DNA of 64,000 nt from Desulfobulbaceae bacterium BRH_c16a (lineage in GTDB: Bacteria; Desulfobacterota; Desulfobulbia; Desulfobulbales; Desulfocapsaceae), in the NCBI GenBank assembly GCA_000961725.1, contig LADS01000058.1:124001-188000 (forward strand), in the 5' to 3' direction. The notes beneath the pieces were generated by a model. It saw only the letters and a program-made list of their open reading frames with translations, made no database searches and was not told where the DNA came from. The position numbers were made by a program, and so were the translations under genes. This document shows positions 30,618 to 61,448 of this stretch, in pieces. Position 1 is the stretch's first letter. Every line of letters starts with the position of its first letter.

Positions 30618-30851
30618 ATGGAAATAAATGTTAAGGAAGCAAAATCGAAGATGGGCTCGCTTCTAGATCGATCCCAGAAGGGCGAAGAAGTAGTGATCAT
30701 GCGACGTGGAAGACGGATTGCCCGGCTTGTCCCTGTTAGTAGTACTGATAAGAGGCTTCCGGATCTGAAGGATTTTCGTGATTCCATCACGGTCAAAGGA
30801 GACACCCTCAGCAATACTGTCATACAAGGGCGTAATGAGGAACGATATTAA
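30618..30851 (+). CDS. Phd/YefM-type antitoxin
   Basis: 77 aa. MEINVKEAKSKMGSLLDRSQKGEEVVIMRRGRRIARLVP is the N-terminal DNA-binding fold of Phd/YefM antitoxins. The C-terminus (ITVKGDTLSNTVIQGRNEERY) would wrap the toxin. GGAGGATATCAAAT precedes the ATG. It overlaps the PIN toxin gene (TAATG), and such pairs usually autoregulate through the antitoxin. Confidence 0.87.
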   Translation: MEINVKEAKSKMGSLLDRSQKGEEVVIMRRGRRIARLVPVSSTDKRLPDLKDFRDSITVKGDTLSNTVIQGRNEERY

Positions 30852-31276
30852 TGGTATATGTTGATACGAGCGTTCTTGTGGCCTATTATTGCCCTGAAGC
30901 TTCGAGTGTGGCTGTTCAGGAATTTCTCATTGAGCACCCTAAGCCTGCGATCAGTTCGTTAACCGAGGTTGAGTTGTTTTCTGCCGTAGCACGGAAAGTA
31001 CGGATGAACGAGTTGGACCAGCTCGATGGAAATCGGATTATATCAAGATTCTTATCTCATCTGGATGCAGATTTTTTTACATTCATCTCAGTAGACAGCA
31101 GGCATTGGCGACTCGCCAGAAGTTATATCGGCCTGTTCAATACTCCTTTGCGGACTCTGGACGCACTTCATCTTGCAATTGCCTCATTAGAAGAATTTGA
31201 GTTGGTTACCTCCGACCAGCAACTTGTGCAGGCAGCGACTGTTTTGGGAGTAAAAATCCGCACGCTCAATCGGTAA
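30851..31276 (+). CDS. vapC: VapC-type PIN-domain toxin
   Basis: 141 aa PIN RNase. Acidic residues are in place: Asp in VYVDTSVLVAYY, Glu in SSLTEVELFSAV, Asp in LRTLDALHLAIA and Asp in ELVTSDQQLV. It is coupled to the antitoxin by a 1-nt overlap. The module appears intact. Confidence 0.88.
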   Translation: MVYVDTSVLVAYYCPEASSVAVQEFLIEHPKPAISSLTEVELFSAVARKVRMNELDQLDGNRIISRFLSHLDADFFTFISVDSRHWRLARSYIGLFNTPLRTLDALHLAIASLEEFELVTSDQQLVQAATVLGVKIRTLNR

Positions 31277-31335
31277 TTTGCTGTCTTTGAGGAGATTAGG
31301 GTCAGGAATCGAAGATATTAACTTTCCAATGGCCA

Positions 31336-31745
31336 ATCGAGATTGCCGGGATGGCTGAGATCGGCCACCGGCTGGAGAAAGACGGCCGCGCCGATTTCCT
31401 TTGCGGTGGTGAACACCATCTCCCGGTGGGCGCAATGCAGGTACTCGTCGGTATGAAATCCCAGCACTCGCCGCCAGCCGTTCATGGTAAAGGAGCGGGC
31501 TGTCTCAGAAGGGCTCAGCCGCAGATGCTGGAAGTCGTAATGGATCGGCAGGCTCACTCCCTCCAGTCTGCCGCCGATATACCAGGCCCCGACCCGATCA
31601 TACAGCTGCATGACGCAGGGATGGACGCACGGATCATCCGTGCCGTAGACAGACTTCGCCTCTTTCTGCTTGTCCGGCTTCCAGATATCCTCAACAGTCA
31701 AGGTGGTCAGCAGAAACCCTTCTGCCCCAAATATCCGCCGAGCTG
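31336..31745 (-). pseudogene. fragment of the sat (ATP sulfurylase) region
   Basis: Nearly identical to 33770-34160 of the intact gene; the 143-codon track ORF covers it. It includes the altered site GFHTDEYLHCAHRE, so that change predates this copy. Both ends are cut without start or stop context. The remaining 31746-32031 holds the leader of the 600-bp repeat and no gene. Confidence 0.75.
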
Positions 31746-31803
31746 TCAAGCATTCAATAATAATTTCAGCACTTTAACATCTTCTGCCATCTCCAGGCAA
31801 CTC

Positions 31804-32405
31804 TTGTCTTAACTTGTCAACTTCTAGGCCTGGCCCCGTTTTATGATTTTATAAGTTATGCTTTCTCATAGTTGCATGGTAAATTAAAAATAAACGTGGT
31901 CAATCTAGTCACAACACAGGAAATTGATTTCTTGTTTTTCACTCCTCAAGTACCACCTCACAACCACTTCCACGGGGATGTGTGGGTACCAAAAAGGCGG
32001 ACATCGACGATCCCCGAAAGGAGACGGTTTATGGACAGACTTATAGAAGAACACCGTGAAGAGATTAAGCGGCTTGCCCTCTTACGCGGCGCCCGCCGGG
32101 TGAGAGTATTCGGTTCGCGGGCTCGTGGCGATGCCGGTCCTGAAAGTGACGTGGATATCCTTATTGATCTTGAAAAAGGCCGTTCAGCCTTGGCGCTGGG
32201 GGGACTTCTGATGGACCTTCAGGATCTTTTGGGTAAGAAGGTGGAGGTGGTGACGCCGGCTGCCTTGCATCCGAGAATTCGCGACCGCATTCTTGGGCAG
32301 GCTGTTGATATATGACTCTCTCCGAACGTGATCAGGTATATGTTGAGCGCATGCTGGAGTGTATCGAACGCGTCGAGCGATTCGTAGGCCAAGACCGTAA
32401 TTTTT
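31804..32405 (+). repeat. 600-bp direct repeat, copy 2
   Basis: Matches 28207-28808 with few differences (for example GGGGATGTG for GGGTATGTG and ACGG inserted before the start codon). Confidence 0.85.
32032..32315 (+). CDS. MNT-type nucleotidyltransferase (duplicate copy 2)
   Basis: 94 aa with GAAAGGAGACGGTTT-ATG. Same protein as at 28434 (FGSRARGDAGPESDVDILIDL). It overlaps the following HEPN pseudogene at ATGA. A longer upstream start in the track lies in the shared leader and has no ribosome site. Confidence 0.78.
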
Positions 32406-32651
32406 CATGCAGTCGGGCTTGGTGCAGGATGCGGTGGTGCGTAACCTGCAGACTCTGTCCGAATCCAGCCAACGGTTGTCCGAGGAGGCCAAGAAACCCA
32501 GGCCGGTATAGATTGGCGGGCGATCGCCGGTTTTCGCAATGTGCTCGTCCATGACTACCTGGGCCTTGATCTCGAAACGATCTGGCTGGTGATCGAGCAC
32601 GACCTTCCGTCGTTAAGAGACGCTCTCGAAGCTATACAATCTGGCTGGTAA
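32312..32651 (+). pseudogene. frameshifted HEPN (DUF86) toxin gene
   Basis: Starts MTLSERDQVYVERMLECIERVERFVGQDRN. It changes frame at the T-run near 32405 (MQSGLVQDAVVRNLQTLSESSQRLSEEAK) and again near 32507 (IDWRAIAGFRNVLVHDYLGLDLETIWLVIEHDLPSLRDALEAIQSGW, stop at 32651). All parts of a HEPN toxin, including RNVLVH, are present but in three frames. Confidence 0.75.
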
Positions 32652-32758: not shown

Positions 32759-34456
32759 TTAAACAATATACCCCTCCTGCGCCAAATACAGCAAAATCTC
32801 CTGCACCGCCTCCATCGGCGTATTTTTTGATGTATCGATAGTCAACTCCGGATTCGACGGCGGAACATAGGGATCGGTAATCCCGGTGACACCCTTCACC
32901 TTGCCGGCGCGGGCCTTGGCATAGAGTCCTTTCCGGTCGCGTTGTTCGCACACTTCGAGCGGAGTCGCCACATACACTTCAATATAACCGCCATAGCGGG
33001 AAATCAACTGGCGATTGGCCTGACGCGACTCTTCGTAGGGGGCGATCGGAGCACAGAGGGCGATACCGCCGTTCTTGGTTATTTCCCCGGCGACAAAACC
33101 AATCCGGGTGACATTCAGGTTACGATGCTCTTCGGAAAAGGTCAGCTCCGACGACAGATTTTTCCGGACAATATCCCCGTCCAGAAGAGTCACCGGCCGG
33201 TCGCACATTTCCATAAACTTCACCAGCAAAACCTTTGCGATAGTCGATTTGCCGGAGCCGGACAAGCCGGTCATAAAGATGGTGAAGCCCTGTTTCGACC
33301 GGGGCGGAAACGAGCATCGCAGCTGATCGACAACTTCCGGGTAGGAGAACCATGTCGGGATATCTTCGCCATGGATCAGACGACGCCGCAATTCACACGA
33401 AGAAATTGTGGCGACATCTTCTTCGTCCGCCTGAGTCAGCACGACATATTTTTTCAACTTCTGGTGATAGCCCATTTCGCGCTGGGGGACCATGACGATA
33501 CCGGTCTTCCCGGCATATTCGGCAACCAGCTCCTGGGCCAGGCCTCTCGGATAAAAACGATCCTCTTTTTCGCTTCCGGCAAGAGGATCGGCGTGATCGT
33601 CCGCCACTATAAAATGGCTGCAACCAAAGTTCTTGCGGATGATGGCCTGCCAGAGCGCTTCCTTCGGACCGGCCTTCCGGCAGGCGAAAGGGGTAAGCCC
33701 CAGTTTGATCATATTGGCCGGAAATTTATCGGTAAAAGCCTGATAACAGCGGATCTGGGTGTAGTAATCGAGATTGCCGGGATGGCTGAGATCGGCCACC
33801 GGCTGAAGAAAGACCGCCGCGCCGATTTCTTTTGCGGTGGTGAACACCATCTCCCGGTGGGCGCAATGCAGGTACTCGTCGGTATGAAATCCCAGCACTC
33901 GCCGCCAGCCGTTCATGGTAAAGGAGCGGGCTGTCTCCGAAGGGCTCAGCCGCAGATGCTGGAAGTCGTAATGGATCGGCAGGCTCACTCCCTCCAGTCT
34001 GCCGCCGATATACCAGGCCCCGACCCGATCATACAGCTGCATGACGCCGGGATGGACGCTCGGATCATCCGTGCCGTAGACAGACTTCGCCTCTTTCTGC
34101 TTATCCGGCTGCCAGATATCCTCAACAGTCAAGATGGCCAGCAGAAACCCTTCCTGATCGTTCAGGGCCAAGCGCTCACCAATTTTCAGCCTGCCTGCAG
34201 TCTTCTCGCTCACATCCAGGAAAATCGGAATGGGCCAGACAGTGCCGTTGGCCAGATGCATGGTGTCGATAACGGCATCATAGTCCTTCTGCCCCAGATA
34301 TCCGCCGAGCGGAAAAAGGCCACGATTCACCAGCAACTCAAAATCGCACAACTGTCGTGAAGACAAATCGATTGCCGCACATTCCGCCGCCTCGGCCCGT
34401 AATGCCTCGACACGCCTGAAATGAACGATTAAACTCTCTGAGTAATCCATTAACAT
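32759..34456 (-). CDS. bifunctional Sat-CysC (ATP sulfurylase / APS kinase)
   Basis: 565 aa. The N-terminal ATP-sulfurylase domain would make APS from sulfate and ATP; the C-terminal APS kinase would make PAPS. CysC is complete: P-loop MTGLSGSGKSTIA (about 395), LLDGDIVRKNLS, RIGFVAGEI and [12 protein letters not shown]. The sulfurylase site is not: where the family has (Q/H)TRNxxHRxH, this protein has GFHTDEYLHCAHRE, losing the Arg and Asn that bind ATP and sulfate. It may be only an APS kinase in practice. It is separate from dissimilatory sulfate genes. The polysaccharide locus downstream encodes a sulfotransferase-like protein that would need PAPS. Confidence 0.88.
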   Translation of the reverse strand: MLMDYSESLIVHFRRVEALRAEAAECAAIDLSSRQLCDFELLVNRGLFPLGGYLGQKDYDAVIDTMHLANGTVWPIPIFLDVSEKTAGRLKIGERLALNDQEGFLLAILTVEDIWQPDKQKEAKSVYGTDDPSVHPGVMQLYDRVGAWYIGGRLEGVSLPIHYDFQHLRLSPSETARSFTMNGWRRVLGFHTDEYLHCAHREMVFTTAKEIGAAVFLQPVADLSHPGNLDYYTQIRCYQAFTDKFPANMIKLGLTPFACRKAGPKEALWQAIIRKNFGCSHFIVADDHADPLAGSEKEDRFYPRGLAQELVAEYAGKTGIVMVPQREMGYHQKLKKYVVLTQADEEDVATISSCELRRRLIHGEDIPTWFSYPEVVDQLRCSFPPRSKQGFTIFMTGLSGSGKSTIAKVLLVKFMEMCDRPVTLLDGDIVRKNLSSELTFSEEHRNLNVTRIGFVAGEITKNGGIALCAPIAPYEESRQANRQLISRYGGYIEVYVATPLEVCEQRDRKGLYAKARAGKVKGVTGITDPYVPPSNPELTIDTSKNTPMEAVQEILLYLAQEGYIV

Positions 34457-35722: not shown

Positions 35723-35905
35723 ATGGATTCAAGAAAACATATTTGGGAAAAGCCTGAACTGATAATTATCGCCAGGGCTAATCCAGAGGAAGCTGTTTTG
35801 GCTGCGTGCTCGGGTTTGCGGCAAACTGCTGCCAACGTTAAACACGCTGACTGTACTATAGGAGCCAGTACTTGCGACCTCTGTGAAACACCAACAACAA
35901 GCTGA
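35723..35905 (+). CDS. candidate RiPP precursor peptide (PEEAVLxxC leader)
   Basis: 60 aa from the ATG at 35723 with GGAAGGGGGA 9 nt upstream; the longer track start lacks a ribosome site. The leader-like half is MDSRKHIWEKPELIIIARANPEEAVLAAC. The C-terminal half is rich in Cys, Thr, Ser and Ala (HADCTIGASTCDLCETPTTS) with Cys at 29, 44, 51 and 54. A PqqD-like protein and three radical SAM/SPASM enzymes follow on the same strand, the usual setting of a radical-SAM-modified peptide (thioether or other C-centred links). The modification is not known. Confidence 0.72.
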   Translation: MDSRKHIWEKPELIIIARANPEEAVLAACSGLRQTAANVKHADCTIGASTCDLCETPTTS

Positions 35906-35913
35906 AAAACAAC

Positions 35914-35934
35914 ACAGGATTCTCCTGATTTTTT
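35914..35934 (+). terminator. attenuator-like hairpin after the precursor gene
   Basis: CAGGA-TTC-TCCTG followed by ATTTTTTAG, 8 nt after the precursor stop. A weak terminator here would let the peptide be made in excess over its enzymes. Confidence 0.45.
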
Positions 35935-36102
35935 AGCGGAAAAAAGTACGGCTGAAGGAGAACACATTACCCCATTCTCCTCGACAGAAAAGAGAGATTC
36001 CTTTTTGCGGCATCACGGCAGGGAAGTTTGCTGTCCGCTCTTTACCGGCTCCATGGCATCACCGGCAACGGAAGAGACCATGGAGTATCTGCCTACAAAA
36101 TA

Positions 36103-36450
36103 ATGAAAAATGCTGAGCGAAACACTATCCACAAGGAGCCACCATTGGGAGCAATAACCCTGTCCGATGTTTTTATACCCTCAGAAAATATAGTAGCCCG
36201 CAATATTGCCGGAGAGACCATCATCGTTCCAATTACATCAGGTGTAGGTGATCTGGAGGATGATCTCTACTGTTTAAATGCTACAGGACAGAAGATATGG
36301 GATCTGTTTAACGGGTCCACGAGCCTTGTGCAGATTATCGATCTTCTTGAAGCTGATTACGACACCACCCGGCAGGAAATTGAGGAGGACGTCAGAGGTC
36401 TGATAGCCGAACTGGCGAAGAGAAACATTATCACTAAATTGCAACAGTAA
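36103..36450 (+). CDS. PqqD-like RiPP recognition element
   Basis: 115 aa from MKNAERNTIHKEPP. The C-terminal two thirds form the PqqD winged-helix fold: DDLYCLNATGQKIWDLFNGSTSLVQIIDLL and ISRQ-like ending EIEEDVRGLIAELAKRNIIT. It would bind the precursor leader and present it to the radical SAM enzymes. The ATG overlaps (TAATG) a short upstream frame MASPATEETMEYLPTK, suggesting coupled translation. The earlier track start at 36028 is less likely. Confidence 0.8.
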   Translation: MKNAERNTIHKEPPLGAITLSDVFIPSENIVARNIAGETIIVPITSGVGDLEDDLYCLNATGQKIWDLFNGSTSLVQIIDLLEADYDTTRQEIEEDVRGLIAELAKRNIITKLQQ

Positions 36451-36559
36451 GCATGCCCATCACAAAAGAGATCGTCAAAGCTCAGTCCCATGCTTTTCCC
36501 AGGGGGCGAGGCCCTCGTTGTGCTGGTAGCTGAAAAATCCGGCAATCCCCCGTTCTCTA

Positions 36560-37675
36560 ATGAAAAAACCACCAGTAACAATCATCCCCATCCAGGAAAG
36601 CTGCCTCAGCACAGTTGCCCATCTGCCCGACACCTTAATCTCTTTAACCATTGAGCTGACTGCGCGTTGCAACAATAGCTGCAGGCATTGCTACAACAAT
36701 TTGCCGCCCAACGCCAAAGAAGCCCAAGAAAAAGAGCTGAGCCTTGATGAAATTAAAGCGATAATAGAGCAGGCTCTGCCGAAAGGGTTACTCTGGGTCC
36801 TGTTGACGGGAGGTGAACCACTGCTCCGAAAGGACTTTGCCGATATCTTTATCTACCTCAAGAAAAAAGGCTTGCTGGTTTCTGTATTTTCCAACGCTAC
36901 CTTGATAACCAACGAGCATATTCGTCTTTTTAAGAAGTTTCCACCGAGGGATCTTGAAATCACAGTGTATGGCGCAACCCCCACGACGTATAATGCCGTT
37001 ACCCGCACCGCAGGCAATTATGATAAATTCATCCAAAGTATTGAACTGTTATCTGAATACAATGTCCCCTTCAGGTTAAAAACCATGGCCCTCGCCACCA
37101 ACTACCATGAGTTTTCTGCAATCAGGGAATTCTGTCAGAATTATACCAAAGACTACTTTTATTTTGATTTTCAGCTTCATCTTCGCCCGGACGGTGACCC
37201 CGGCAAAAATAAAACTATTACAAAAGAAAGGCTCTCTCCAGAAAAAATAATAGAACTGGAGTGGAACGACCCTGCCAGATCGAAGGCCCTTGAAAAAGAG
37301 TGCAGTACTCTTATACAACCTGATTTTCTCAATAACCGGGGCAATAGCTTGTTTCGCTGCGGGGTCGGTAGAGGCAGTGCCTTTGTAAGTTGCGATGGCA
37401 CACTGCGGCTTTGCCAGTCTCTTTGTCATGAAGAGTATACCTGCAACCTGCGCAACCGTTCACTCATAGAGGCATGGGAGGAGTTGAGGTCAAAAACACG
37501 CACAGCTGTTTCCGATAGCCGCGAGTTTCTCGAGGACTGCAACCGATGTCAGTACATCAATTTGTGTATGTGGTGCCCGGCCCTGGCTCATCTTGAAACG
37601 GGGAGGCTGGATGCCCGAATTGATACTTTCTGCAGACTGGCAAAAGCGCGAGCCGCAAAATTGACCGGGGAATGA
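36560..37675 (+). CDS. radical SAM/SPASM peptide-modifying enzyme 1
   Basis: 371 aa. Radical SAM motif CNNSCRHC (about residues 37-44), LLTGGEPLLRKDF and ITVYGATPTTYNAVTR. The C-terminal SPASM region has CGVGRGSAFVSCDGTLRLCQSLC and CNRCQYINLCMWCPA, giving enough Cys for two auxiliary [4Fe-4S] clusters. It follows the PqqD-like gene by 109 nt. Its closest match in the window is enzyme 3. Confidence 0.9.
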   Translation: MKKPPVTIIPIQESCLSTVAHLPDTLISLTIELTARCNNSCRHCYNNLPPNAKEAQEKELSLDEIKAIIEQALPKGLLWVLLTGGEPLLRKDFADIFIYLKKKGLLVSVFSNATLITNEHIRLFKKFPPRDLEITVYGATPTTYNAVTRTAGNYDKFIQSIELLSEYNVPFRLKTMALATNYHEFSAIREFCQNYTKDYFYFDFQLHLRPDGDPGKNKTITKERLSPEKIIELEWNDPARSKALEKECSTLIQPDFLNNRGNSLFRCGVGRGSAFVSCDGTLRLCQSLCHEEYTCNLRNRSLIEAWEELRSKTRTAVSDSREFLEDCNRCQYINLCMWCPALAHLETGRLDARIDTFCRLAKARAAKLTGE

Positions 37676-37746
37676 TTACGGGCTCGCTTCCAGCAACCTT
37701 TTTTCATAATTCTCTGTACACATCGGGGTTTAACTAACAATCGATA

Positions 37747-39762
37747 ATGACAGCTAAAAAGTATGTAAGCACAGTCTTGCCGCAGGCTTCAACCGCGTTT
37801 GCCACCCAGGGCACCATAGACCTGACTTATCGCTGCAACAACCAATGCCGCCACTGCTGGCTTCGCCTCCCTGAAAATGCGCCTGAACAATCCCAGGAGC
37901 TTACCTTTCGAGATATTGTTACAATCATAAAAAAAAGTATGGCTGCCGGATGTCGGCACTGGGCGATATCAGGTGGTGAACCGCTGTTGCGACCCGATTT
38001 CGGCGACATCCTTGCATACCTGCTCCAGACCCGGCATACATATTCACTTAACACCAACGGGACACTTATCACTCCGGCCATTGCCCGGCTTCTCAAGGCA
38101 AAAGGCACCAAAATGGTTTCCATGTATGGTCCCAATGCGGAGATCCATGACCATATCACTCGAAGGCCGGGATCGTTCGATGCTTTTGTGCAGGGATGCA
38201 GCTACCTGAAGGAGGCAGGCGCCGGTTTTATCGTCCAGATTGTGCCTCTGCAAGACAACAAGCATCTGTTTGCGGAGATGGTAACCCTTGCCGAGACTCT
38301 AAGCCCTCATGCCAGAATAGGAGCGGGTTGGCTCTATCTGTCGGATACTGCCAAGCGCTCGGTAAATGCAGAGATCCTCCGCCAGAGGATAGCCCCGGCG
38401 GAAATGGTACAGATCAATCCACCGGATTTGAGTTGTACAAACACAGCCGATCGGGCAGGTGACGACGTTGCAGAAACAGGACAGACCATCTTCGGAAAAT
38501 GTCTGACAAGGAAAACCGATTTCCATATAAACCCCTATGGCCGGATTTCTTTTTGTTGCTACATAAAGCATGAAGCGCTGCGATACGATATTCTGCACGG
38601 TAGTTTTGCAGAATACCAGCAATCTTTCCTGCCGGCGGCGGCAAAAAGCTTTCCCGAAAATGACGAGTACCGCCAAAACTGCGGCAGTTGCGAAAAACGG
38701 GACAACTGCCTGTGGTGTCCGGCCTTCGGATATCTCGAACATGGCAGGTTTTCGGCTGGAATTGATTATCTCTGCAAATTGGCCGAAGAAACTTCACACC
38801 TGCAAGAAAAATGGCTGAAAAACAACAGTAAATCAATGGAGATAGCCAATATATCAATCACTGTGGAGTCGGATATCCCCTTTACCAGTCCATCTTTTGC
38901 AGCGAAGTTTGCCAACTTTTCTACCGAACCGGCGGCAGAAGGAGATGTCATCATAATACGGCATCACCTGATACAGTCAGTACCTGCGCTTGTATTGGCC
39001 GACCTTGAGGGGAAAGAACTCTTCCAGACAGAGGGACTCACCGTCGGCAAAATTGGCAATAAATATATCTTTTATAAAAAAAATTACCGGGATGCGGATG
39101 ATCCGGCCGATGAATACGCAGTCTTCCATGATGATTTCAGCGAGGCCGATATCTACCACGCTGACAGGCGCTTTTATGAACCCGGCGCCTTTTCATCTAC
39201 AACCGCCATGTTTACGGACCAGATTCTGCTGGCGCAATTGCTGGCCGAACGGCAAGGTGGGATTTTTCATGCTAGTGGAATCATCCATAATGGCAACGGT
39301 TTTCTTTTTGTCGGCCATTCCGGAGCCGGAAAAAGTACGATCTTCTCTCTTTTTCCGCAGGACACTGCACTGCTGTCGGAAGACAGGGTTATCGTCCGCC
39401 GACAGGTATCGCAATGGAAGGTTTATGGCACCTGGTTCCACGATTTTTCCCATAACACCATACCGGGCCCGGCACCCCTGAGGGCAATTTTTTTTCTCAA
39501 TCAGTCGCAAACTAATCGTTTTGAACAGGTTGCCAGGGAGAATGTCATTGTTAAGCGGCTGCTGCCATGCCTGGTACGAGCCCTCGAAACGAATGCGTGG
39601 TGGGAGAAGACGCTCGATTTTCTCTCCACTGTTGCCGGAGAGGTGCCGGCTTACGATCTCTACTTTGACAGAAGCGGTGATATCGTCAGGCAGATAGACG
39701 ATCTTTTTCCGGGCACTCATGAAGGAAAACATATCAATGACTATAGAGATACTGAAAAATGA
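37747..39762 (+). CDS. radical SAM/SPASM enzyme 2 fused to an HPr-kinase-like domain
   Basis: 671 aa in two modules. Residues 1-350: radical SAM with CNNQCRHC, SGGEPLLRPDFGD, VSMYGPNAEIHDHITR and a SPASM tail (FGKCLTRKTDFHINPYGRISFCCY, CGSCEKRDNCLWCPAF). Residues 365-671: HPrK-like kinase with GGIFHASGIIHNGNGFLFVGHSGAGKST (P-loop about 521) and LLSEDRVIV. HPrK-like kinases phosphorylate Ser in some RiPPs, so one polypeptide may both crosslink and phosphorylate the peptide. Alternatively, the kinase domain may only bind ATP. The stop overlaps the next gene by 4 nt. Confidence 0.88.
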   Translation: MTAKKYVSTVLPQASTAFATQGTIDLTYRCNNQCRHCWLRLPENAPEQSQELTFRDIVTIIKKSMAAGCRHWAISGGEPLLRPDFGDILAYLLQTRHTYSLNTNGTLITPAIARLLKAKGTKMVSMYGPNAEIHDHITRRPGSFDAFVQGCSYLKEAGAGFIVQIVPLQDNKHLFAEMVTLAETLSPHARIGAGWLYLSDTAKRSVNAEILRQRIAPAEMVQINPPDLSCTNTADRAGDDVAETGQTIFGKCLTRKTDFHINPYGRISFCCYIKHEALRYDILHGSFAEYQQSFLPAAAKSFPENDEYRQNCGSCEKRDNCLWCPAFGYLEHGRFSAGIDYLCKLAEETSHLQEKWLKNNSKSMEIANISITVESDIPFTSPSFAAKFANFSTEPAAEGDVIIIRHHLIQSVPALVLADLEGKELFQTEGLTVGKIGNKYIFYKKNYRDADDPADEYAVFHDDFSEADIYHADRRFYEPGAFSSTTAMFTDQILLAQLLAERQGGIFHASGIIHNGNGFLFVGHSGAGKSTIFSLFPQDTALLSEDRVIVRRQVSQWKVYGTWFHDFSHNTIPGPAPLRAIFFLNQSQTNRFEQVARENVIVKRLLPCLVRALETNAWWEKTLDFLSTVAGEVPAYDLYFDRSGDIVRQIDDLFPGTHEGKHINDYRDTEK

Positions 39763-40943
39763 GCGCAACTCAATACGTCAGAAGGAAAACGCTGGAAGAG
39801 CTGTCACTGTTTAAAAAACCGGCACGGTTACTGACCCATCTCGATATCGAGCTTACCGAACGCTGCAATAACAACTGCCTGCACTGTTATGTCAACCACC
39901 CTGCCGACAGTATTCTCCACGCAAACCGGGAACTGAAAACCGAACACCATAAAGATATATTGAAAGAGGCTGCTGCCGCAGGCTGTTTCTCGGTACGGTT
40001 CACAGGCGGGGAGCCTCTGCTGCGACCTGACTTTGCAGAACTCTATATTCATGCCAAAAAAGCCGGCTTAAAGGTTATACTCTTTACCAATGCAACACTG
40101 TTGTCTCCAGAACTCATTCATCTTTTTAAGCAGATGCCACCAAAGGAGCCCATTGAAGTAACAATATACGGCATGCACAGGAAGTCTTGTGAAGCCATTA
40201 CAAGAACTATCGGCTCTTTTGATGCAACCCAGCGCGGTATTGACCTTCTCATAGCTGCCGCTATTCCCTTTGTTGTCAAGGGCGTCTGTCTGCCCCAAAA
40301 CCGCGAGGAACGAAAGCTTTTCGAGTCGTGGGCGGCAACCCTGCCGGGAATGAAAAACAGTCCGCCAAGCTATGCGATGCACTTCGATCTGCGCGTTCGC
40401 AGAGACAGCGAGACAAGAAATACCCTTATAAGAAACCTCAGGCCGACCAGACAGGAAAGCCTGGCATTTTCATTGCTGGACAAAGAGGCCTTCCTCAAGG
40501 AAACCAGAACTTTCTGCCGGATGTTTTCCGCCATTCCCGGGGCAAAGGTGTTCGGTTGCGGGGCAGGGCGCAACAACCTTGTCGTCGATTCGTATGGTGC
40601 GGTCTATCCCTGCCTGCTCCTGCGGCATCCCGATACAACCTATGCTCTGCACAAAGGTTCGCTCAAGGATGCAATGGAAAATTTTTTTCCAGCCCTGCTG
40701 TCCCTGGAGGCTGAAAACAAAGAGTATCTCAGGCGTTGTGCCAGGTGTTTTCTCAAAAGCTTCTGTAAACAATGCCCGGCAAGGTCATGGATGGAGAATG
40801 GCACTTTGGATACCCCGGTGGAATATCATTGCGTAATCGCCCACGCCCAGGCTGAAGCTGCAGGAATCCTCCAACCGGAAGAAAAATCCTGGGAAGTAAA
40901 AAACTGGAAGGAACGAGTAGACAGACTCGATGCCGATTACTGA
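39759..40943 (+). CDS. radical SAM/SPASM enzyme 3
   Basis: 394 aa. CNNNCLHC (about residues 36-43), RFTGGEPLLRPDF and VTIYGMHRKSCEAITR. SPASM: FGCGAGRNNLVVDSYGAVYPCLLL and CARCFLKSFCKQCPA. ATGA overlap with the fusion gene. Three non-identical SPASM enzymes suggest sequential modifications or several sites on the precursor. Confidence 0.9.
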   Translation: MSATQYVRRKTLEELSLFKKPARLLTHLDIELTERCNNNCLHCYVNHPADSILHANRELKTEHHKDILKEAAAAGCFSVRFTGGEPLLRPDFAELYIHAKKAGLKVILFTNATLLSPELIHLFKQMPPKEPIEVTIYGMHRKSCEAITRTIGSFDATQRGIDLLIAAAIPFVVKGVCLPQNREERKLFESWAATLPGMKNSPPSYAMHFDLRVRRDSETRNTLIRNLRPTRQESLAFSLLDKEAFLKETRTFCRMFSAIPGAKVFGCGAGRNNLVVDSYGAVYPCLLLRHPDTTYALHKGSLKDAMENFFPALLSLEAENKEYLRRCARCFLKSFCKQCPARSWMENGTLDTPVEYHCVIAHAQAEAAGILQPEEKSWEVKNWKERVDRLDADY

Positions 40944-41042
40944 TACCCAATTACTCGTCAGCACCCAAACCCACAGCCCGGCTGAAGGAGCACCACTGCC
41001 CGGAAACCAATCTACCCCATTGATCACCACAATATCCGAGAA

Positions 41043-41537
41043 ATGACAATCCCCCCTCAATATGAACTCAATCTCTCCGGTAGCGATCTGTGCGGAATCA
41101 TGTACGCTGTGCTCGACAAAGGGGCCTCCTTTCGCTTCCAGGCCAGGGGCCACAGCATGTCGCCCTTTATTCGCAATGGCGATATCATCAGCGTCGCCAA
41201 GGTAAGGACAGGCAAGATCCGGGTCGGCGATGTCGTTGCTGTGCTTAATCCGGTCAATTACGCGGTAATTGTGCACAGGGTGGTGGGGGAGTCGGAAAAG
41301 GGAATTCTCCTTAAGGGGGATAATTGCAACACTGCCGATGGCGTCTTTGCCTGTGAAGCCATTCTCGGCGAGGTCACCAGAGTGGAACGCGGCACGAAAG
41401 AGATAACCTTCTGCAGAGGCCCGGCAAAGAAACTCATCGCTTTTCTCTCGGTATCCGGGCTGCTCAACAAGGTCTTTCTGCCGTTGCTGCGCAGATTCAG
41501 AAACATGATAAACATGGGTAGAAGCATGGAAACATAG
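41043..41537 (+). CDS. S24/S26 signal-peptidase-like protein
   Basis: 164 aa. GHSMSPFIRNGDIISV contains the catalytic Ser, and VIVHRVVGESEKGILLKGDN the His and box-E region. This is the Ser/His (SipW/archaeal-like) arrangement rather than Ser/Lys. A C-terminal hydrophobic segment (LIAFLSVSGLLNKVFLPLL) may anchor it. It is the last gene of the radical SAM cluster and could remove the leader peptide. Confidence 0.78.
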   Translation: MTIPPQYELNLSGSDLCGIMYAVLDKGASFRFQARGHSMSPFIRNGDIISVAKVRTGKIRVGDVVAVLNPVNYAVIVHRVVGESEKGILLKGDNCNTADGVFACEAILGEVTRVERGTKEITFCRGPAKKLIAFLSVSGLLNKVFLPLLRRFRNMINMGRSMET

Positions 41538-41802
41538 ATAATATGGGGACATAATACCATGCCCATATTATCTATTTTTCTCTTTACTCCATCACAGCGG
41601 TAGTGTTAAATGACTTACTGAATCAGGGGATTGGTTAGTGGTTAAGTTGTTGTAGGAAATCAGATCTATCTGTTGGTACGTCTGTAACATAGCGCTAATC
41701 CCGCTAATTTTTATACAGCAGGAATAATGAGTAGTTTTTCCTGGCACACAGGAACCCCTCCCAGCCCCAATCAATAATGTTATACACAATCAGTCTACAA
41801 AT

Positions 41803-41930
41803 CATGAAAGAAAAAACATCGGTGTAGTAGGCCTCGGCTATCGTCGGCCTGCCCCCTTTGGGTAACCTTTGCCCAAAAGTATCAGACCATCGGTTTTGAT
41901 ATAAAAAAGGAAGTTAAGTTCTGCGGGCTC
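41803..41930 (+). pseudogene. relic of a nucleotide-sugar dehydrogenase
   Basis: Frames combined read NIGVVGLGY-VGLPLA-like-VTFAQKYQTIGFDIKKEVKF, the Rossmann N-terminus of UDP-glucose/UDP-ManNAc dehydrogenases, broken by at least two indels (at TATCGTCGG and CCCCCTTTGGG). Only about 40 codons remain. The rest of the 402-nt gap 41538-41939 shows nothing I can name. Confidence 0.6.
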
Positions 41931-41939
41931 CAGAAAAAG

Positions 41940-43769
41940 ATGCATAAACCTGCCTCAATCTCCAAAAGAATAAAGAACGCCCTGCGCATCGACCGCGCCA
42001 TGCTGCTCGTCTGGAAGGCCAGCCGCAGCTGGACCATTCTCTCCATCTGCCTGACAGTCGTCCAGGGCTTTATTCCGCTGTTAACGCTCTATATCATCAA
42101 GCTCCTCATCGATACCATCACTGCTGCACTGCAGTCAGATGATGCCATGGCGTCTTTCCAGCGCATTATTTATCTGGTTATTGCCGCGGCCCTCGTTACC
42201 ATACTGCAGGCAGCTGTCCGCATCGCCGGTAACTATGTCGCCGAGGCCCAGGCCGCCATTGTAACCGATTATGTCCTCAGCGCACTCCATGACAAATCAA
42301 TTTCTCTCGATCTGGCCTACTACGAGAACCCGCAATATTATGACACCCTGCACCGTGCCCAGCGGGAAGGGCCATACCGTCCGACCAAGATCGTCAACGG
42401 CTTGACCAGAGTGTTGCAGAACGGGGTATCTCTTGCGGCAATGGTCGGCCTGCTTTTTATGTTCCACTGGAGTGTCGGGCTGTTATTGTTTGCCTCGACG
42501 CTTCCCGGGGTTTTTGCCCAGGTCCTTCATGCCCGCAGGCAATTTGAATGGCAAAAAAAACGCACGCACGAAGAGCGGCGTGCCACCTATCTCAGTAGTG
42601 TTTTGACGATGGATGCTTTTGCCAAAGAGATCCGGCTTTTTGGTTTGGGCAGCTTCTTTGCCGATTCGTTCAACCGTATCCGCACATTATTGCGTGGCGA
42701 AAAACTGGCCCTGAGCCGGAAAAAACTGCTGGCCGAGTTTTTCGCCCAGTTTTTTGCTGCCCTGATAGTGATGGGCTGCCTGCTCTTTATTGCCATGCGG
42801 GCATTGCAGGGCGCCATCACAGTGGGCGATATGGTCATGTTCTACCAGGCCTTCCAGCGGGGCGTCGGTAACCTCAAGGATCTGCTCACCAATGTCGCTG
42901 CGCTCTACGAAGACAATATGTTCGTCACCTACTTTTTTGAGTTTCTCGATATTGAGAACGCAATAAAGAACCCGCCTCTGCCGCTGCCTGTGCCGCCAAA
43001 ACTCACCAGGGGCATTGCCCTGGAAAACGTATCCTTCCGCTATCCGGGCCAGCGGAGCGCCGTTCTCGAAGATATCTCTCTTAAAATCGGGCAAGGGGAA
43101 GTCGTTGCCCTGGTCGGCGCCAATGGTGCCGGCAAAAGCACCCTGGTAAAACTGCTCTGCCGCCTCTATGACCCGCAGGAAGGCAGGATCACACTCGATG
43201 GCACAGACCTGCGGAGCTTTGCCCTGCAGAATCTGCGCGGGCAAATCAGCGTGGTGTTTCAGGATTTTGCCAGATATTACCTCACTGTTAAAGAGAACAT
43301 TCATCTTGGCAATATCAATATCTCTCAGGATTCTGAAAAAATCAAAGAAGCGGCAATCAAGGCGAACGCCGACACTTTTATTGATAAACTCCCTCAAGGC
43401 TACGACACCTTTCTGGGGCGCTGGTTCTATTCCGGAGAAGAAATCAGCCTCGGTGAGTGGCAGAAGATCGTTCTGGCTCGGGCATTTTTACGCGACTCCC
43501 AGCTGATTATCCTTGACGAACCCACCAGTTCCCTTGATATACATACAGAATATCATCTCTATCAAAAATTCCGCGAGTTGATTGCCGGGCACTCAGCTCT
43601 GCTGATCAGTCATCGCTTTTCCACAGTGCGCATGGCCGACAGAATATATGTTGTTGACGGCGGCAGAATAGCCGAGCAGGGTACCCATACGGATCTCATG
43701 GCTTTAAAGGGTATCTATGCCGATTTGTACACTAAGCAGGCGGCCTGGTTGGATGATGAAAAAAACTAA
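41940..43769 (+). CDS. ABC exporter (fused membrane and ATPase domains)
   Basis: 609 aa. Six-helix membrane domain (residues 25-330), then ATPase with Walker A VALVGANGAGKSTLVKLL, a degenerate signature YSGEEISLGEWQKIVLAR (LSGGQ replaced by ISLGEW, as in several peptide exporters) and Walker B LIILDEPTSSLD. No C39 peptidase domain. It lies 35 nt upstream of the HPrK-like gene and is probably the LasD-type exporter of the lasso peptide. Export of the radical SAM peptide is the alternative. Confidence 0.85.
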   Translation: MHKPASISKRIKNALRIDRAMLLVWKASRSWTILSICLTVVQGFIPLLTLYIIKLLIDTITAALQSDDAMASFQRIIYLVIAAALVTILQAAVRIAGNYVAEAQAAIVTDYVLSALHDKSISLDLAYYENPQYYDTLHRAQREGPYRPTKIVNGLTRVLQNGVSLAAMVGLLFMFHWSVGLLLFASTLPGVFAQVLHARRQFEWQKKRTHEERRATYLSSVLTMDAFAKEIRLFGLGSFFADSFNRIRTLLRGEKLALSRKKLLAEFFAQFFAALIVMGCLLFIAMRALQGAITVGDMVMFYQAFQRGVGNLKDLLTNVAALYEDNMFVTYFFEFLDIENAIKNPPLPLPVPPKLTRGIALENVSFRYPGQRSAVLEDISLKIGQGEVVALVGANGAGKSTLVKLLCRLYDPQEGRITLDGTDLRSFALQNLRGQISVVFQDFARYYLTVKENIHLGNINISQDSEKIKEAAIKANADTFIDKLPQGYDTFLGRWFYSGEEISLGEWQKIVLARAFLRDSQLIILDEPTSSLDIHTEYHLYQKFRELIAGHSALLISHRFSTVRMADRIYVVDGGRIAEQGTHTDLMALKGIYADLYTKQAAWLDDEKN

Positions 43770-43804: not shown

Positions 43805-44713
43805 TTGATGAAGTATATAGCTTACAATTTGACAATCGAGTCGGAATTGCCGCTGCCTCTCCCGGTCGATGATTCCGGCACACCAGCTGATATGGCTATA
43901 ACCATTGCTAAGATTGATGAACCGGAAAAGCTTTGCAGAACCTATGACGGTGTCTGGTATGCCCATGGCGAAAAATCCCTTTTGCTGCGATGGGATATTA
44001 TAGGAACCTTCTTAATTCAAAGGGGCGAGAAAATTATCTTAGATCCCGTCAGTGACTTAGGTGATCTATCTCTTTCGCTAGTCCCAATGCTGGGAACAGT
44101 AATTGCGGTGGCCATTTTCCAGCGAGGGTTGACAACATTACATGGCAGCAGTGTAGCGGTGAATGGAAAGGCTGTAATATTTTTAGGTGATAAAGGAAAA
44201 GGTAAATCTACGCTTGCCGCATACTGCCACCATCGGGGCTATTTGCTTGTCTCAGATGATATCTGTGCTATCGACAATAGAGAAGATAGAGATAGAAGAA
44301 GACCCTGCCTTTATCCATCATTTCCCTCGGTTAAGCTCTGGCCGGACGTAATGCACTACTTAGGTATGAATGAGTCGCAGCACAAGAGGGTTCATCCTTC
44401 CATACATAAAAGAATCATTTCATTTAATAAAGATTTCGCTGATCAGCCTTTGGAGATAGCGGCTATAATATTACTGGAGAAAGGAGATATTCTCCACATG
44501 ACAAAAATTGGGGGACACAAGACAGTTCCCAATCTACTACCGCATTTTCTGATTAACCGTTTTCCCGATGACCAACCTGGTCATCTTCAGGAAAGTGTTT
44601 TTTTCCAGCTGAATCGTTTAATCCAATCGATCCCGGTCTACAAACTACACAGACCCCATGATCTCTCGTTGCTACCCGATTCTTTGTCATTGATTAACAA
44701 GACGTTATTTTAA
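43805..44713 (+). CDS. HPrK-like kinase (lasso-peptide kinase candidate)
   Basis: 302 aa. LTTLHGSSVAVNGKAVIFLGDKGKGKSTLA (P-loop about residue 127) and LLVSDDICAID are the HPr-kinase core. The N-terminal 100 residues are specific to the RiPP-associated branch and the regulatory domain of true HPrK is missing. In paeninodin-type clusters such a kinase phosphorylates the C-terminal Ser of the lasso precursor. The precursor at 46792 ends in Ser, so the same reaction is likely here. Confidence 0.83.
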   Translation: MMKYIAYNLTIESELPLPLPVDDSGTPADMAITIAKIDEPEKLCRTYDGVWYAHGEKSLLLRWDIIGTFLIQRGEKIILDPVSDLGDLSLSLVPMLGTVIAVAIFQRGLTTLHGSSVAVNGKAVIFLGDKGKGKSTLAAYCHHRGYLLVSDDICAIDNREDRDRRRPCLYPSFPSVKLWPDVMHYLGMNESQHKRVHPSIHKRIISFNKDFADQPLEIAAIILLEKGDILHMTKIGGHKTVPNLLPHFLINRFPDDQPGHLQESVFFQLNRLIQSIPVYKLHRPHDLSLLPDSLSLINKTLF

Positions 44714-44749: not shown

Positions 44750-46633
44750 TTAATCATTTAGAGACAAATTTTCATTTTTCAGCCATGCATATACTGTCAG
44801 CACCTTCCAGACATCACTGAGTGCAGGGTCCTTTTTCTCTGGATGGGATTTGTGATGGTCGATGAGCTTTTTGACATCAAACCAATCCGACAACTCTTTT
44901 TGACATTGGCCCAAGATACTGTTTTCTAGGGGTTTATTGTAAATAAGATCGAGAACAGGTTCCATATCGGGGGTGAAATCTGTTTTGTCCGCCCGCCATT
45001 GAATCTTTTTTGGGATAATACCTTGCATGCTTCTTCTTTGTATGGACCTGGGCCAACCATTTTGGAATTTTTGATTTGTGGGTAAAGATAGGCAAAACTC
45101 CACAAGCCTTTTATCCCAAAACGGACAACGATATTCTATTGAAAAGTTCTCTGCGCTTCTCCCTAATACCTCGAGTGCAAAAGGTTGAATGGGGTGAAAT
45201 GCATGCTTGATATGATGAAATCTCTGTTTAGGGGAGTTCTCTTCTTCGCTTGCTGCAAACTCCAAACGCTCCTTTGCGTTTGAGCGTTTTAAAAAAGATT
45301 GAGAGCAGGCTTCTAATAAAGCGTTATTGGAGTGTGCTTGTGGCGGCAAATTCGAAGAATTGGTGCCCTTAAATCGAAAGAGATGGTAGATGAGGGGGTT
45401 GATGTTTTTTCGGAAATACTTTAGCAGGATTTTCTTCTGAATAGAGCGAGAAAGTGCTTTGTGAGCTAAAACTGTCTCTTTAAGAAGAGACAGTAATTTT
45501 TTCTCCTCAATTAACTCTATAAAATACCAAAGATCATTTGAGATTACGGTGTCGCCATCGTGGCCATCAAGCAGAAGCTGAACATGATTACTTTCCATTC
45601 GAGAAAGAAGGTTCCAATACATGAAATGATGGGGTGCATACCATGGTTGCTTTTGAACGGAAGCAATCTCGAAAAGTGATTCTAGAGGGTTTGTCTCATC
45701 AACGACCATTTTGTTCCATCGGAAAGACCCTTGCCGTAATGTTTCTTTGATATATTCTTGTTCATCGCATTGAATATATTTGTTAAAAATACCTGAGTAT
45801 ACTTGTAGAGGAAAATCATTTTCTTTCGCGATTTTTTTTTCGGCGACACATGCCACGGATGTCGAATCAAGCCCACCACTTAACGTTATTGCCAGGTCTT
45901 TTGAGTGCATTCGGCACTCCACCGCATCACGAAAGATTTCTCGAAAAGCTTCCTCATAGTCGGAATTTTTTTTGTAAGATAGAGGGCTGTAGCTGTATTC
46001 CCAGTACTTATCTATTTCAAAGTTATTTTCTGAAACTGTAATTGAGTGGGCAGGCGGCAGACGGAAGATATGCTTATAAAAAGTAGATTCGTTGTCTAAA
46101 CAGACAGACAGCATATAATCAACCAGACGTTCCTCATTGACCTTCTTTGGGATGTTCTGAAACATTAAAAGAATATCAAGAGAGGATGAAAACGAAAAAC
46201 GATTGTTATTGCAAAAATAATAGAATGGCTTCATGCCAAGGTGATCTCGAGCACAAAAAAGACGCTTTTCGTTTTTGTCCCATATCGCAAAAACGAAATC
46301 ACCAAGTAAATGCGAAGGGCAACTCCTCCCCCACTTTAAATAGGCAAGAGCGATAATCTCTTCGAGACACTCTGTTTTATTTTCTGATTTTTTTGGCAAC
46401 TCGACTTTATCTGCCAACTCACTGATATTATCGAGCCGTCCGGACGCAACCACTAGGAGGTGTTGTATTGGTATGGACTCATATAGGTAATAACTTTTCC
46501 CTATCCATCCCGCACCAATATTTTGAAATGATGAATTACTAAAATATCTCGATAAAGTTGATATGATTTGAGTATTATTTTGTCCACCAGCTCGAGGGGA
46601 GCGGTTTAGTGAGCCAAATAATTTACAAATCAT
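44750..46633 (-). CDS. asparagine-synthetase-like lasso cyclase
   Basis: 627 aa. N-terminal glutaminase-like domain (Cys at residue 3; LLGDFVFAIWDKNEKRLFCARDHLGMKPFYY), then the ATP-pyrophosphatase domain with LAITLSGGLDSTSVACVAE and LLDGHDGDTV. In lasso biosynthesis this enzyme adenylates the ring Asp/Glu and closes the macrolactam. It lies 158 nt downstream of a lasso-type precursor gene on the same strand and is convergent with the kinase gene. A free-asparagine synthetase is less likely given this setting. Confidence 0.88.
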   Translation of the reverse strand: MICKLFGSLNRSPRAGGQNNTQIISTLSRYFSNSSFQNIGAGWIGKSYYLYESIPIQHLLVVASGRLDNISELADKVELPKKSENKTECLEEIIALAYLKWGRSCPSHLLGDFVFAIWDKNEKRLFCARDHLGMKPFYYFCNNNRFSFSSSLDILLMFQNIPKKVNEERLVDYMLSVCLDNESTFYKHIFRLPPAHSITVSENNFEIDKYWEYSYSPLSYKKNSDYEEAFREIFRDAVECRMHSKDLAITLSGGLDSTSVACVAEKKIAKENDFPLQVYSGIFNKYIQCDEQEYIKETLRQGSFRWNKMVVDETNPLESLFEIASVQKQPWYAPHHFMYWNLLSRMESNHVQLLLDGHDGDTVISNDLWYFIELIEEKKLLSLLKETVLAHKALSRSIQKKILLKYFRKNINPLIYHLFRFKGTNSSNLPPQAHSNNALLEACSQSFLKRSNAKERLEFAASEEENSPKQRFHHIKHAFHPIQPFALEVLGRSAENFSIEYRCPFWDKRLVEFCLSLPTNQKFQNGWPRSIQRRSMQGIIPKKIQWRADKTDFTPDMEPVLDLIYNKPLENSILGQCQKELSDWFDVKKLIDHHKSHPEKKDPALSDVWKVLTVYAWLKNENLSLND

Positions 46634-46742
46634 CTATTGAGGAAGAAAAAGAGTGATGATCTGGATTAAAGAAGAGCAACAAGTGTTTGCAATCAAAGGC
46701 ACCTGTGCGTTCTCCTGAAAAAAAAGAGAGAAAATCATTTCC

Positions 46743-46768
46743 CCACCATCTGTAATCGTTGATGGTGG
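46743..46768 (-). terminator. attenuator hairpin between lasso precursor and cyclase
   Basis: CCACCATC (46743-46750) pairs with GATGGTGG (46761-46768). Read on the minus strand it is followed by AAATGATTTTCTCTCTTTTTTTTC. Such a hairpin between precursor and enzyme genes favours high peptide expression. Confidence 0.5.
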
Positions 46769-46791
46769 AGAAAGTTTTGTATATGACTTTA

Positions 46792-46929
46792 TTAACTAAA
46801 AATGTTGCCACTCGCACCTTGATTATAATTTGCATCAAGACGAGTCGGAGTAGGTGAGGAAGCTTTTGTTATCTCTTCTACATCGCCATAGACTACAACA
46901 ACCGGTGCCACATACTCTTTCTTTTCCAT
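46792..46929 (-). CDS. lasso-peptide precursor (not in the ORF track)
   Basis: 45 aa: MEKKEYVAPVVVVYGDVEEI, then TKASSPTPTRLDANYNQGASGNIFS. The leader has YxxP (Y6-P9) and a conserved-type Gly15. Thr21 is a good candidate for the -2 Thr that precedes lasso cores. If the core starts at Ala23 the ring acceptor is Asp32 at position 10; if at Ser24 it is position 9, as in paeninodin. The peptide ends in Ser45, the residue modified by HPrK-like kinases. AGGGGGT precedes the ATG. Confidence 0.78.
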   Translation of the reverse strand: MEKKEYVAPVVVVYGDVEEITKASSPTPTRLDANYNQGASGNIFS

Positions 46930-46993
46930 GAGACTACCCCCTGAATGCAATGCAAAAGTTTAAGGAGAATAAATTTTATACGGATTAAAAGAT

Positions 46994-49973: not shown

Positions 49974-50168
49974 ATGTCTAACTGGCCTTATGAGAAGTAC
50001 TGGGTAGGTCTGAATATCAATTTGACATGGGAATCATTCATCAAAAAAAGGGATGTCATCAAACCATTCAAAAAGCAGTGGTTGGCGGAAAATATCCCAT
50101 TGAACGTTCACTTGTCTAAACTCGAGAATTATACTTTAATGCCTTATTTGCTGTTTCTATGTTTTTGA
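49974..50168 (+). CDS. doubtful 64-aa ORF
   Basis: MSNWPYEKYWVGLNINLTWESF... has no recognisable family and a weak ribosome site, and its end overlaps the next start by 10 nt. It may be a short leader gene or chance. Confidence 0.22.
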   Translation: MSNWPYEKYWVGLNINLTWESFIKKRDVIKPFKKQWLAENIPLNVHLSKLENYTLMPYLLFLCF

Positions 50169-51391
50169 AAAATTTAGAGATTGAGCATAAACAGTCTCCG
50201 GAAATTGCTGTATTGATAGCATGTTCTTCCAAGCAGCTCACGAAGGAGAATATACAAACACTGTCTGCATTGCTCGCCAAAACTTTGGACTGGGATGTGC
50301 TTCTTAGAAGTGCCCAGTATCACAAAGTTATCCCCTTGCTATATAAAACGCTTACTACTTACTTTAAAATGGACGTTCCTGAGCGGGTTTTCACAGACCT
50401 CTCGAAGCTAAATTGGAACAATTCTGTCCATTCCCTTAATGTTAGCGCGACGTTAGTCAATATAATCAAGCTATTTAATGAAAATGGCATTGATGTTTTG
50501 CCGATAAAAGGACCTTTGCTTGCTGAGAGACTGTACGGCTCCTGTTCTATGAGGATGTATGGAGATCTTGATATCCTGGTACGCCAGAAAGATTTAGAGA
50601 AATCCTTGAATGTCTTGCAGGAAAATAATTATAGATTGGTTCCGGAGGGAATTCCGCAATCAACCTATATGAAGTTTTTAAAGCACAAATACCATGGACA
50701 ACTCCTTAGTAAGAATGGAATATTTGTAGAAATGCATTGGGAATTGACGGGTTTCTATGTCTCTGAGCCTTTGACATTTGAACGTGTGGAACCTTTTTTG
50801 ATCAGAACAAAATTTTCCAATTATCCCACTTTGGATTTGATCGATGAAATGTTGCTTATATTTCTCTGCATCCATGGCAATAGCCATCGGTTAGAAAAAC
50901 TGGATTATATCTGTTCTGTTGCTGAGTTGTTGAAGATATCTCCAAATATCGACTGGGCATTAATAATGGAAATTGGCCAGAAATATAAAATGACTAAGAG
51001 AATATTGGTCACTCTTTGCCTTGCTAAAAAAATCTTTGGATCGGCAATTTCTGTATGGATAGAAGACGCAATTTCAAATAATAGGGCAGTCGCACAACGT
51101 GCTGATAGAGTAATGGGGCAGGATTTTATTGAAAATAGTGAAGCCTTTCGGCACCCGCTGCAGAGGCATATACGTTATCAATATAATGTCATGGACAATA
51201 AGTATGACTCGATCAAGTATATTTTACGTTCAATAGTTGTACCGAACCATAATGATTGGCAAAAGAAAAGATTTTCTGATGTGTTGTTTTGGTTTTATTT
51301 TTTATATAAACCTTACCGTATGTTATCTGTTCCTGTCCTAAATAGAATGAGTACAACCATTGATGATAACCTAAGGAAAAGAAAAGAGTAG
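50159..51391 (+). CDS. nucleotidyltransferase-like protein (NTP_transf_5 type)
   Basis: 410 aa. IDVLPIKGPLLAERLYGSCSMRMYGDLDILVRQKDLEKSLNVL is the signature of this family, whose members recur in lasso and polysaccharide clusters. DLDIL keeps the DxD pair. A paralogue of the same family lies at 62210. Role unknown; first gene of the surface-polysaccharide locus. Confidence 0.8.
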   Translation: MFLKNLEIEHKQSPEIAVLIACSSKQLTKENIQTLSALLAKTLDWDVLLRSAQYHKVIPLLYKTLTTYFKMDVPERVFTDLSKLNWNNSVHSLNVSATLVNIIKLFNENGIDVLPIKGPLLAERLYGSCSMRMYGDLDILVRQKDLEKSLNVLQENNYRLVPEGIPQSTYMKFLKHKYHGQLLSKNGIFVEMHWELTGFYVSEPLTFERVEPFLIRTKFSNYPTLDLIDEMLLIFLCIHGNSHRLEKLDYICSVAELLKISPNIDWALIMEIGQKYKMTKRILVTLCLAKKIFGSAISVWIEDAISNNRAVAQRADRVMGQDFIENSEAFRHPLQRHIRYQYNVMDNKYDSIKYILRSIVVPNHNDWQKKRFSDVLFWFYFLYKPYRMLSVPVLNRMSTTIDDNLRKRKE

Positions 51392-55888: not shown

Positions 55889-55891
55889 TTC

Positions 55892-61444: not shown

Positions 61445-61448
61445 ATAA

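Follow-up and report, generated by a model that had tools for sequence, protein, structure and literature searches.

A widespread and apparently undescribed RiPP family that combines several radical SAM/SPASM enzymes with an HPr kinase-like domain

The described system nearest to the gene cluster reported here is the SynChlorMet cassette, for which, to our knowledge, no precursor has been named. It comprises a PqqD homologue, two SPASM proteins and the HPrK-like protein ScmC (NCBIfam TIGR04248-TIGR04251), and a literature search found no paper that mentions it. HPr kinase genes were observed earlier in the lasso peptide clusters of anaerobes (PMC4289311). As reviewed in PMC9266682, PadeK phosphorylates the C-terminal Ser of a lasso precursor, lasso kinases share an essential His-Lys-Asp-Asp motif, lasso precursors accompanied by a kinase retain the C-terminal Ser, and PsmN, annotated as a nucleotidyltransferase, places a hexose on that phosphate in pseudomycoidin. 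No paper joining HPr kinase or HprK with radical SAM/SPASM/PqqD RiPPs was found in a literature search that did not extend to subscription literature, and a prior description is not excluded; surveys of RREs and of leader proteases make no mention of a kinase of this type.

The window analysed here is a stretch of 64,000 nucleotides (64 kb) of Desulfobulbaceae bacterium BRH_c16a, contig LADS01000058.1; the source genome is 6.5 Mb in size and, to judge from its gene content, belongs to a sulfate reducer. The genes of the cluster and its neighbours are as follows.

35723..35905, + strand: precursor peptide, 60 aa (family of 118 relatives; leader HMM E 1.5e-12)
36103..36450, + strand: PqqD-like leader-binding protein (RRE) (Pfam PqqD 52.6 bits, cut-off 23.4; in 43 of 43 relatives with full flanks)
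36560..37675, + strand: SAM1, radical SAM/SPASM peptide maturase (Pfam Radical_SAM 82.1 bits; orthologue in 43 of 43 relatives)
37747..39762, + strand: SAM2-kinase fusion, radical SAM/SPASM at about residues 1-350 and HPrK-like kinase at about 365-660 (same fusion in about 50 other genes)
39759..40943, + strand: SAM3, radical SAM/SPASM peptide maturase (Pfam 77.1 bits; seven invariant SPASM Cys; the query behind the 79 relatives)
41043..41537, + strand: S24/S26-type Ser/His peptidase, candidate leader peptidase (Pfam S24 30.8 and S26 23.2 bits, both above cut-off; in 40 of 43 relatives)
41940..43769, + strand: ABC exporter (membrane and ATPase parts), probable exporter of the product (Pfam ABC_tran 116 bits; homologue in 21 of 43 relatives)
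43808..44713, + strand: second HPrK-like kinase (hhalign against the fused kinase family: probability 94%, E 1.3e-7)
50159..51391, + strand: NTP_transf_5 (PF14907) protein (159 bits; NTP_transf_5 in 22 of 43 relatives)

The initial annotation of this DNA had proposed one directional cluster made up of a precursor, a PqqD-type binder, three SPASM enzymes, one of them fused to a kinase, and an S26-type peptidase, and all six genes are indeed present in these places on one strand. The start of SAM3 overlaps the stop of the fusion gene (ATGA). Absent from that annotation were the ABC exporter, a homologue of which (51% identical) lies directly 3′ of SAM1 in a related locus (L054), and the separate lasso-peptide genes that adjoin it. 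Only two NTP_transf_5 proteins above cut-off are found in the genome, both inside the window; the one listed may provide a further tailoring of phosphate, and its assignment to the SPASM cluster is uncertain. Upstream of the cluster are an ATP sulfurylase/APS kinase fusion gene at 32759-34456 (-), with a partial near-duplicate of its front part at 31318-31749 (-), and, at 30851-31276 and 31872-32554, possible toxin-antitoxin modules: a PIN-domain-like gene, and an MNT-type nucleotidyltransferase accompanied by a partial partner. Two transposase-like genes are located at 23764-25143 (-) and 47306-48712 (+), and an apparent remnant related to the first at 48921-49441.

With SAM3 as the sole query, 85,462 species genomes yielded 165 relatives, and 79 loci were kept. 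Because these 79 further loci were fetched by SAM3 alone and contain the same partners, mostly with a precursor too, the association of the genes is more than chance. The bacterial members fall in Omnitrophota, Aminicenantes, Desulfobacterota (Deltaproteobacteria), Chlorobiaceae, Chloroflexi (Anaerolineae), WOR-1, WOR-3, Acidobacteria, Planctomycetota and Anaeromyxobacter, and the archaeal members are the methanogens Methanothrix and Methanolinea; most relatives come from metagenome bins, so single taxon labels need care. Among the 43 loci with adequate flanks a kinase is found in 40 (fused in 29) and a precursor in 40, with the other partners as listed above. Genome mining had been suggested at the outset as a check, with the absence of conserved precursors beside homologous enzyme sets as the refuting outcome; that outcome was not met. 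The usual gene order is precursor, SAM2-kinase, SAM3, PqqD, S26, SAM1 and exporter, and the order in the window differs. The existence of a widespread RiPP family is well supported; it is apparently undescribed, and is a variant of the SPASM RiPPs, not a categorically new system.

Some relatives depart from this gene set. A methyltransferase is an accessory gene in 12 loci, and five loci (L056, L057, L063, L080, L124), possibly a prenylated branch of the family, encode a protein related to the LynF/TruF peptide prenyltransferases beside a geranylgeranyl-reductase-like protein. A more distant group (L048-L053) has a single SPASM enzyme and a kinase, mostly with PqqD, S26-like and NTP_transf_5 proteins; in three of these one-SPASM clusters (L048, L050, L051) the precursors resemble those of the family in their leader and likewise end in Ser.

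The precursor genes of the relatives were found with an HMM of the leader only, and most loci gave one; they lie a median of 136 bp from a core gene and on the strand of SAM3 in 105 of 116 cases. The leader WxxPxLIVLxRGxPEExVLxxCK is common to 118 distinct precursors, with near-invariant W (105 of the 115 aligned), P (105), L (102), E (111), L (112), C (115) and K (109). Lasso leaders have a similar aromatic-x-x-Pro motif, which is also seen in the window's own lasso precursor. The core is 24-51 residues long in all precursors but one, and is variable in the 118 apart from Cys and the last residue. A core Cys is found at -7 in 90 of the 118, often with another at -10 or -11, and these are the best-conserved core positions after the last Ser. 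In the window, GGAAGGGGGA lies just 5′ of the start codon of the precursor (ATG at 35723), the leader is HIWEKPELIIIARANPEEAVLAACS, ending in CS where the family has CK, and the core cysteines are at -17, -10 and -7 counted from the end, a spacing among the commonest in the family; the C-terminal residue is Ser. An encoded precursor with a conserved leader and a variable core beside modifying enzymes (118 precursors, 79 loci) satisfies the definition of a RiPP. One Chlorobiaceae cluster (L118, 17525-19376) has five consecutive precursor genes with differing cores.

The three SPASM enzymes of the window score 72-82 bits against Radical_SAM, and all contain CX3CX2C, as do nearly all SAM1 proteins of the family; seven SPASM-type cysteines are invariant in the alignment of SAM3 and in that of the SAM2 part of the fusion, which together meet the definition of a radical SAM/SPASM maturase. 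A predicted structure of the full fusion is also well folded (pLDDT 83.6), and its SPASM part resembles SkfB, SuiB and PqqE, the nearest solved folds. Best model matches of the SPASM enzymes are scattered over the AhbD, NirJ2, ScmE/F, mycofactocin and PqqE families, and the type of crosslink is not readable from the sequences, which fall between several families. The peptidase has the motifs GHSMSP (GxSMxP) and VHRV, and with these Ser/His motifs present it scores 50.2 bits against the archaeal-type signal peptidase I model, just under the cut-off of 51.85.

The fusion is a single open reading frame of 671 aa. A sequencing or frameshift artefact, or a unique event, was ruled out because about 50 genes in other organisms carry this fusion as an uninterrupted frame. 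Fifty of the kinases are fused and 24 stand-alone, and the fusion, for which the initial annotation knew no characterised parallel in a RiPP, is not peculiar to the window, being the majority and the common form of the family. A single switch between the fused and stand-alone states is unsupported, as the state changes nine times on the SAM3 tree, at least three of these on starred branches.

Sequence searches with the kinase domain gave only weak matches, to HPr kinase, HprK-related kinase B and ScmC. An AlphaFold2 model built from 54 aligned sequences (pLDDT 88.7, pTM 0.87) has its PDB matches among HPr kinases and PEP carboxykinases (E 4e-6 to 1e-3), and all matches below E 0.001 are PEP carboxykinases and HPr kinase/phosphatases. 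The TM-scores, 0.3 to 0.55, are low, which is expected of a distant relative that has an additional N-terminal part. His508, the P-loop GHSGAGKS (Lys529) and Glu545-Asp546 are found in the window kinase, where the family consensus for the acidic pair is Asp-Asp. A pattern search recovered the His, the P-loop Lys and the acidic pair in 70 of 74 kinases (Asp-Asp in 67, Glu-Asp in three); of the four missed, two merely have a longer loop, that of L111 has a changed P-loop serine-histidine stretch, and that of L112 is without the His and without the P-loop glycine. With a P-loop, a His, the Asp-Asp motif (Glu-Asp in the window) and a predicted HPrK fold, the domain qualifies for the HPrK/PckA superfamily.

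The last residue of the precursor is Ser in 102 of the 118, Thr in 10 and another residue in six, so that 112 of 118 end in Ser or Thr, and all 22 hold-out precursors, from loci fetched later, end in Ser. Against a Ser frequency of 9% in the rest of the core the binomial P for the terminal Ser is about 5e-87, a value that is a description and not a true probability as the sequences are homologous; at positions -2 to -6 the top residue occurs in at most 22 of the 118. Phosphorylation of this Ser by the fused kinase is inferred, by analogy, because the terminal Ser/Thr is near-invariant and same-fold lasso kinases phosphorylate exactly the C-terminal Ser; phosphotransfer to a peptide Ser rests on that residue only. 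Loss of the terminal Ser was sought in four loci where no kinase was detected nearby (L094, L109, L116, L125), and the Ser persists. A search for a kinase elsewhere in these four genomes gave weak kinase-like matches or none, and a close kinase match lies on another small contig in the genome of L129. Its persistence where no kinase was detected nearby means that Ser and kinase are not strictly linked, and another role is possible.

A cluster encodes three SPASM enzymes where the kinase is fused and two where it stands alone, a difference that is paralleled by the core cysteines: at least three are found in 62 of 69 precursors beside three SPASM enzymes vs 4 of 23 beside two (Fisher p 1.7e-10), and 19 of the 23 have two. 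The extra Cys is often three or four residues N-terminal of the last. In the hold-out, 16 of 17 precursors from SAM2-bearing loci have at least three Cys; the extra genomes mostly added fused loci, so only that side is confirmed. Locus L101 holds both architectures, with a 2-Cys precursor in its two-SPASM cluster and a 3-Cys precursor beside its fusion gene. In L125, SAM2 is present without a detectable kinase and the precursor still has three Cys, which suggests that SAM2 and not the kinase goes with the third Cys. Seven of 63 loci disagree with the rule, including the L094/L109/L116 clade, which with L234 and L235 forms an exceptional group with four Cys and no SAM2 found. Only four pairs with good branch support were available to a phylogenetic test (p 0.5 by sign test), and the tree cannot decide because related loci are not independent and independent changes are few. 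These counts from sequence make one SPASM enzyme per core Cys a strong pattern and a rule open to test, but fall short of proof.

The window also contains a split lasso set, at 44750-46959 (-), 43808-44713 (+) and 62210-64112 (-). The lasso-like cyclase at 44750 (NF033535, 498 bits of 525) was considered as a member of the SPASM cluster and set aside, as a lasso-type precursor of its own, MEKKEYVAPVVVVYGDVEEITKASSPTPTRLDANYNQGASGNIFS, with Ser at the end, lies at 46792-46959. The NTP_transf_5, B2 and PqqD genes of the lasso set are 16 kb away, separated from the rest by exopolysaccharide-type genes and a transposase gene. With its Ser-ending precursor, HPrK-like kinase and NTP_transf_5, the lasso set is a parallel to the SPASM cluster; the second kinase (43808-44713), which adjoins the lasso genes and is related to the fused kinase, could be the partner of either system. 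The exopolysaccharide-type genes (50159-62207; flippase-like, glycosyltransferase-like, acyltransferase-like and WecG/TagA-like) extend past the end of the window (L037), and glycosyltransferase or O-antigen ligase genes are found near several of the RiPP relatives.

Across many phyla, then, precursor, PqqD-type binder, SPASM enzymes, HPrK-fold kinase and Ser/His peptidase travel together, often with an exporter. We consider it probable, though well short of assured, that the locus is a RiPP cluster for SPASM crosslinking, C-terminal Ser phosphorylation, trimming and export; this chemistry is inferred and none of it was observed. PqqD would bind the leader (WxxPxL...PEEAVL) and present the core, after which SAM1, SAM2 and SAM3 would oxidise one site each, most likely forming one Cys thioether each of the sactionine or ranthipeptide type, and the extra Cys near the end would fall to the fused SAM2. 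Phosphorylation of the side chain of the C-terminal Ser may be the work of the fused kinase, in the manner of PadeK and ThcoK on lasso precursors; NTP_transf_5, where present, might extend the phosphate by a sugar or nucleotide, compare PsmN of pseudomycoidin. The S26-like peptidase is predicted to cut off the leader and the ABC protein to export the product. With a near-invariant C-terminal Ser/Thr and a number of SPASM enzymes that matches the core Cys, the multiply crosslinked, possibly phosphorylated peptide envisaged in the initial annotation is still the best, inferred, reading.

Each half of this inference can be read otherwise. The SPASM products may be not thioethers but C-C crosslinks, epimers or a redox cofactor (compare PQQ), leaving the Cys as disulfides or metal ligands. 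The spread of best model matches from AhbD to PqqE allows this, as do the many Cys of some precursors; the conservation of Cys -7 and -10 or -11, and a Cys number that follows the number of SPASM genes, speak against it, and it seems to us unlikely, though still a serious contender. The HPrK-like domain, for its part, might serve the SPASM enzyme as a chaperone or regulator driven by ATP/GTP, or phosphorylate another protein, with the Ser kept for recognition by maturase or peptidase. A terminal Ser that persists in four loci with no kinase detected nearby would fit such a role, and so would the Glu that replaces the first catalytic Asp in the window, yet almost all members retain the His, P-loop Lys and acidic pair, the domain has the HPrK/PEPCK fold, and characterised lasso systems, whose precursors have this C-terminal Ser too, use a similar kinase on the peptide (PMC9266682); this reading we regard as rather improbable. 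Plain identity with SynChlorMet, for which NCBIfam already has models, is suggested by the same kinds of parts and by ScmC being among the best model matches of the kinase domain, but the curated cut-offs are far from reached, also in Chlorobiaceae and Methanolinea members, and very little likelihood remains for it.

The cluster represents a RiPP family with identified precursors across many anaerobic bacterial and archaeal lineages, for which no description was found. If the product is the crosslinked and phosphorylated peptide inferred here, radical crosslinking and C-terminal phosphorylation would be joined in one polypeptide, and a modification so far described for lasso peptides would extend to a second RiPP class, the chemistry in both cases being inferred. 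One SPASM enzyme per Cys would also give a simple testable rule where assigning multiple radical SAM enzymes to sites is hard. A bolder idea, speculative and quite unlikely as it stands, is that a C-terminal phospho-Ser module (HPrK-like kinase, NTP_transf_5, aromatic-x-x-Pro leader and PqqD) is common to lasso and SPASM peptides, two RiPP classes without chemical kinship, and attaches the finished peptide, by way of the phosphate at its end, to a sugar or glycan, with Cys one-to-one with SPASM enzymes. If true, such coupling would explain why several clusters, that of the window included, lie inside exopolysaccharide loci.

Among known systems, the PQQ and mycofactocin pathways share a PqqD-type binder and a SPASM enzyme with the family, and differ in having another precursor, whereas here there are several SPASM enzymes and a kinase; the PqqE and mycofactocin cut-offs are unmet. 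Sactipeptides and ranthipeptides (AlbA, SkfB, StsB, PapB) likewise have a Cys-rich core matured by SPASM enzymes, but here several distinct SPASM enzymes per precursor are accompanied by a kinase, and the curated models of those four are not met (for example StsB 42-89 of 625 bits, PapB 59 of 340). The phosphorylated lasso peptides (paeninodin/PadeK, ThcoK, SyanK; pseudomycoidin/PsmK-PsmN) resemble the family in an HPrK-like kinase with His-Lys-Asp-Asp, a Ser-ending precursor, a PqqD-type binder and, in some clusters, a nucleotidyltransferase (PMC9266682). No B2 peptidase or Asn-synthase-like cyclase is found among the genes from 35723 to 43769, and the SPASM cluster core has instead SPASM enzymes, one with the kinase fused to it. 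Membership of SynChlorMet was rejected, as the curated cut-offs of ScmC (27-38 bits vs 125), ScmD (18-30 vs 100) and ScmE/ScmF (53-90 vs 400) are not met, and Chlorobiaceae members too miss them by a factor of about four; beyond the parts that the two have in common, a third SPASM enzyme is here fused to the kinase and the precursor family is identified.
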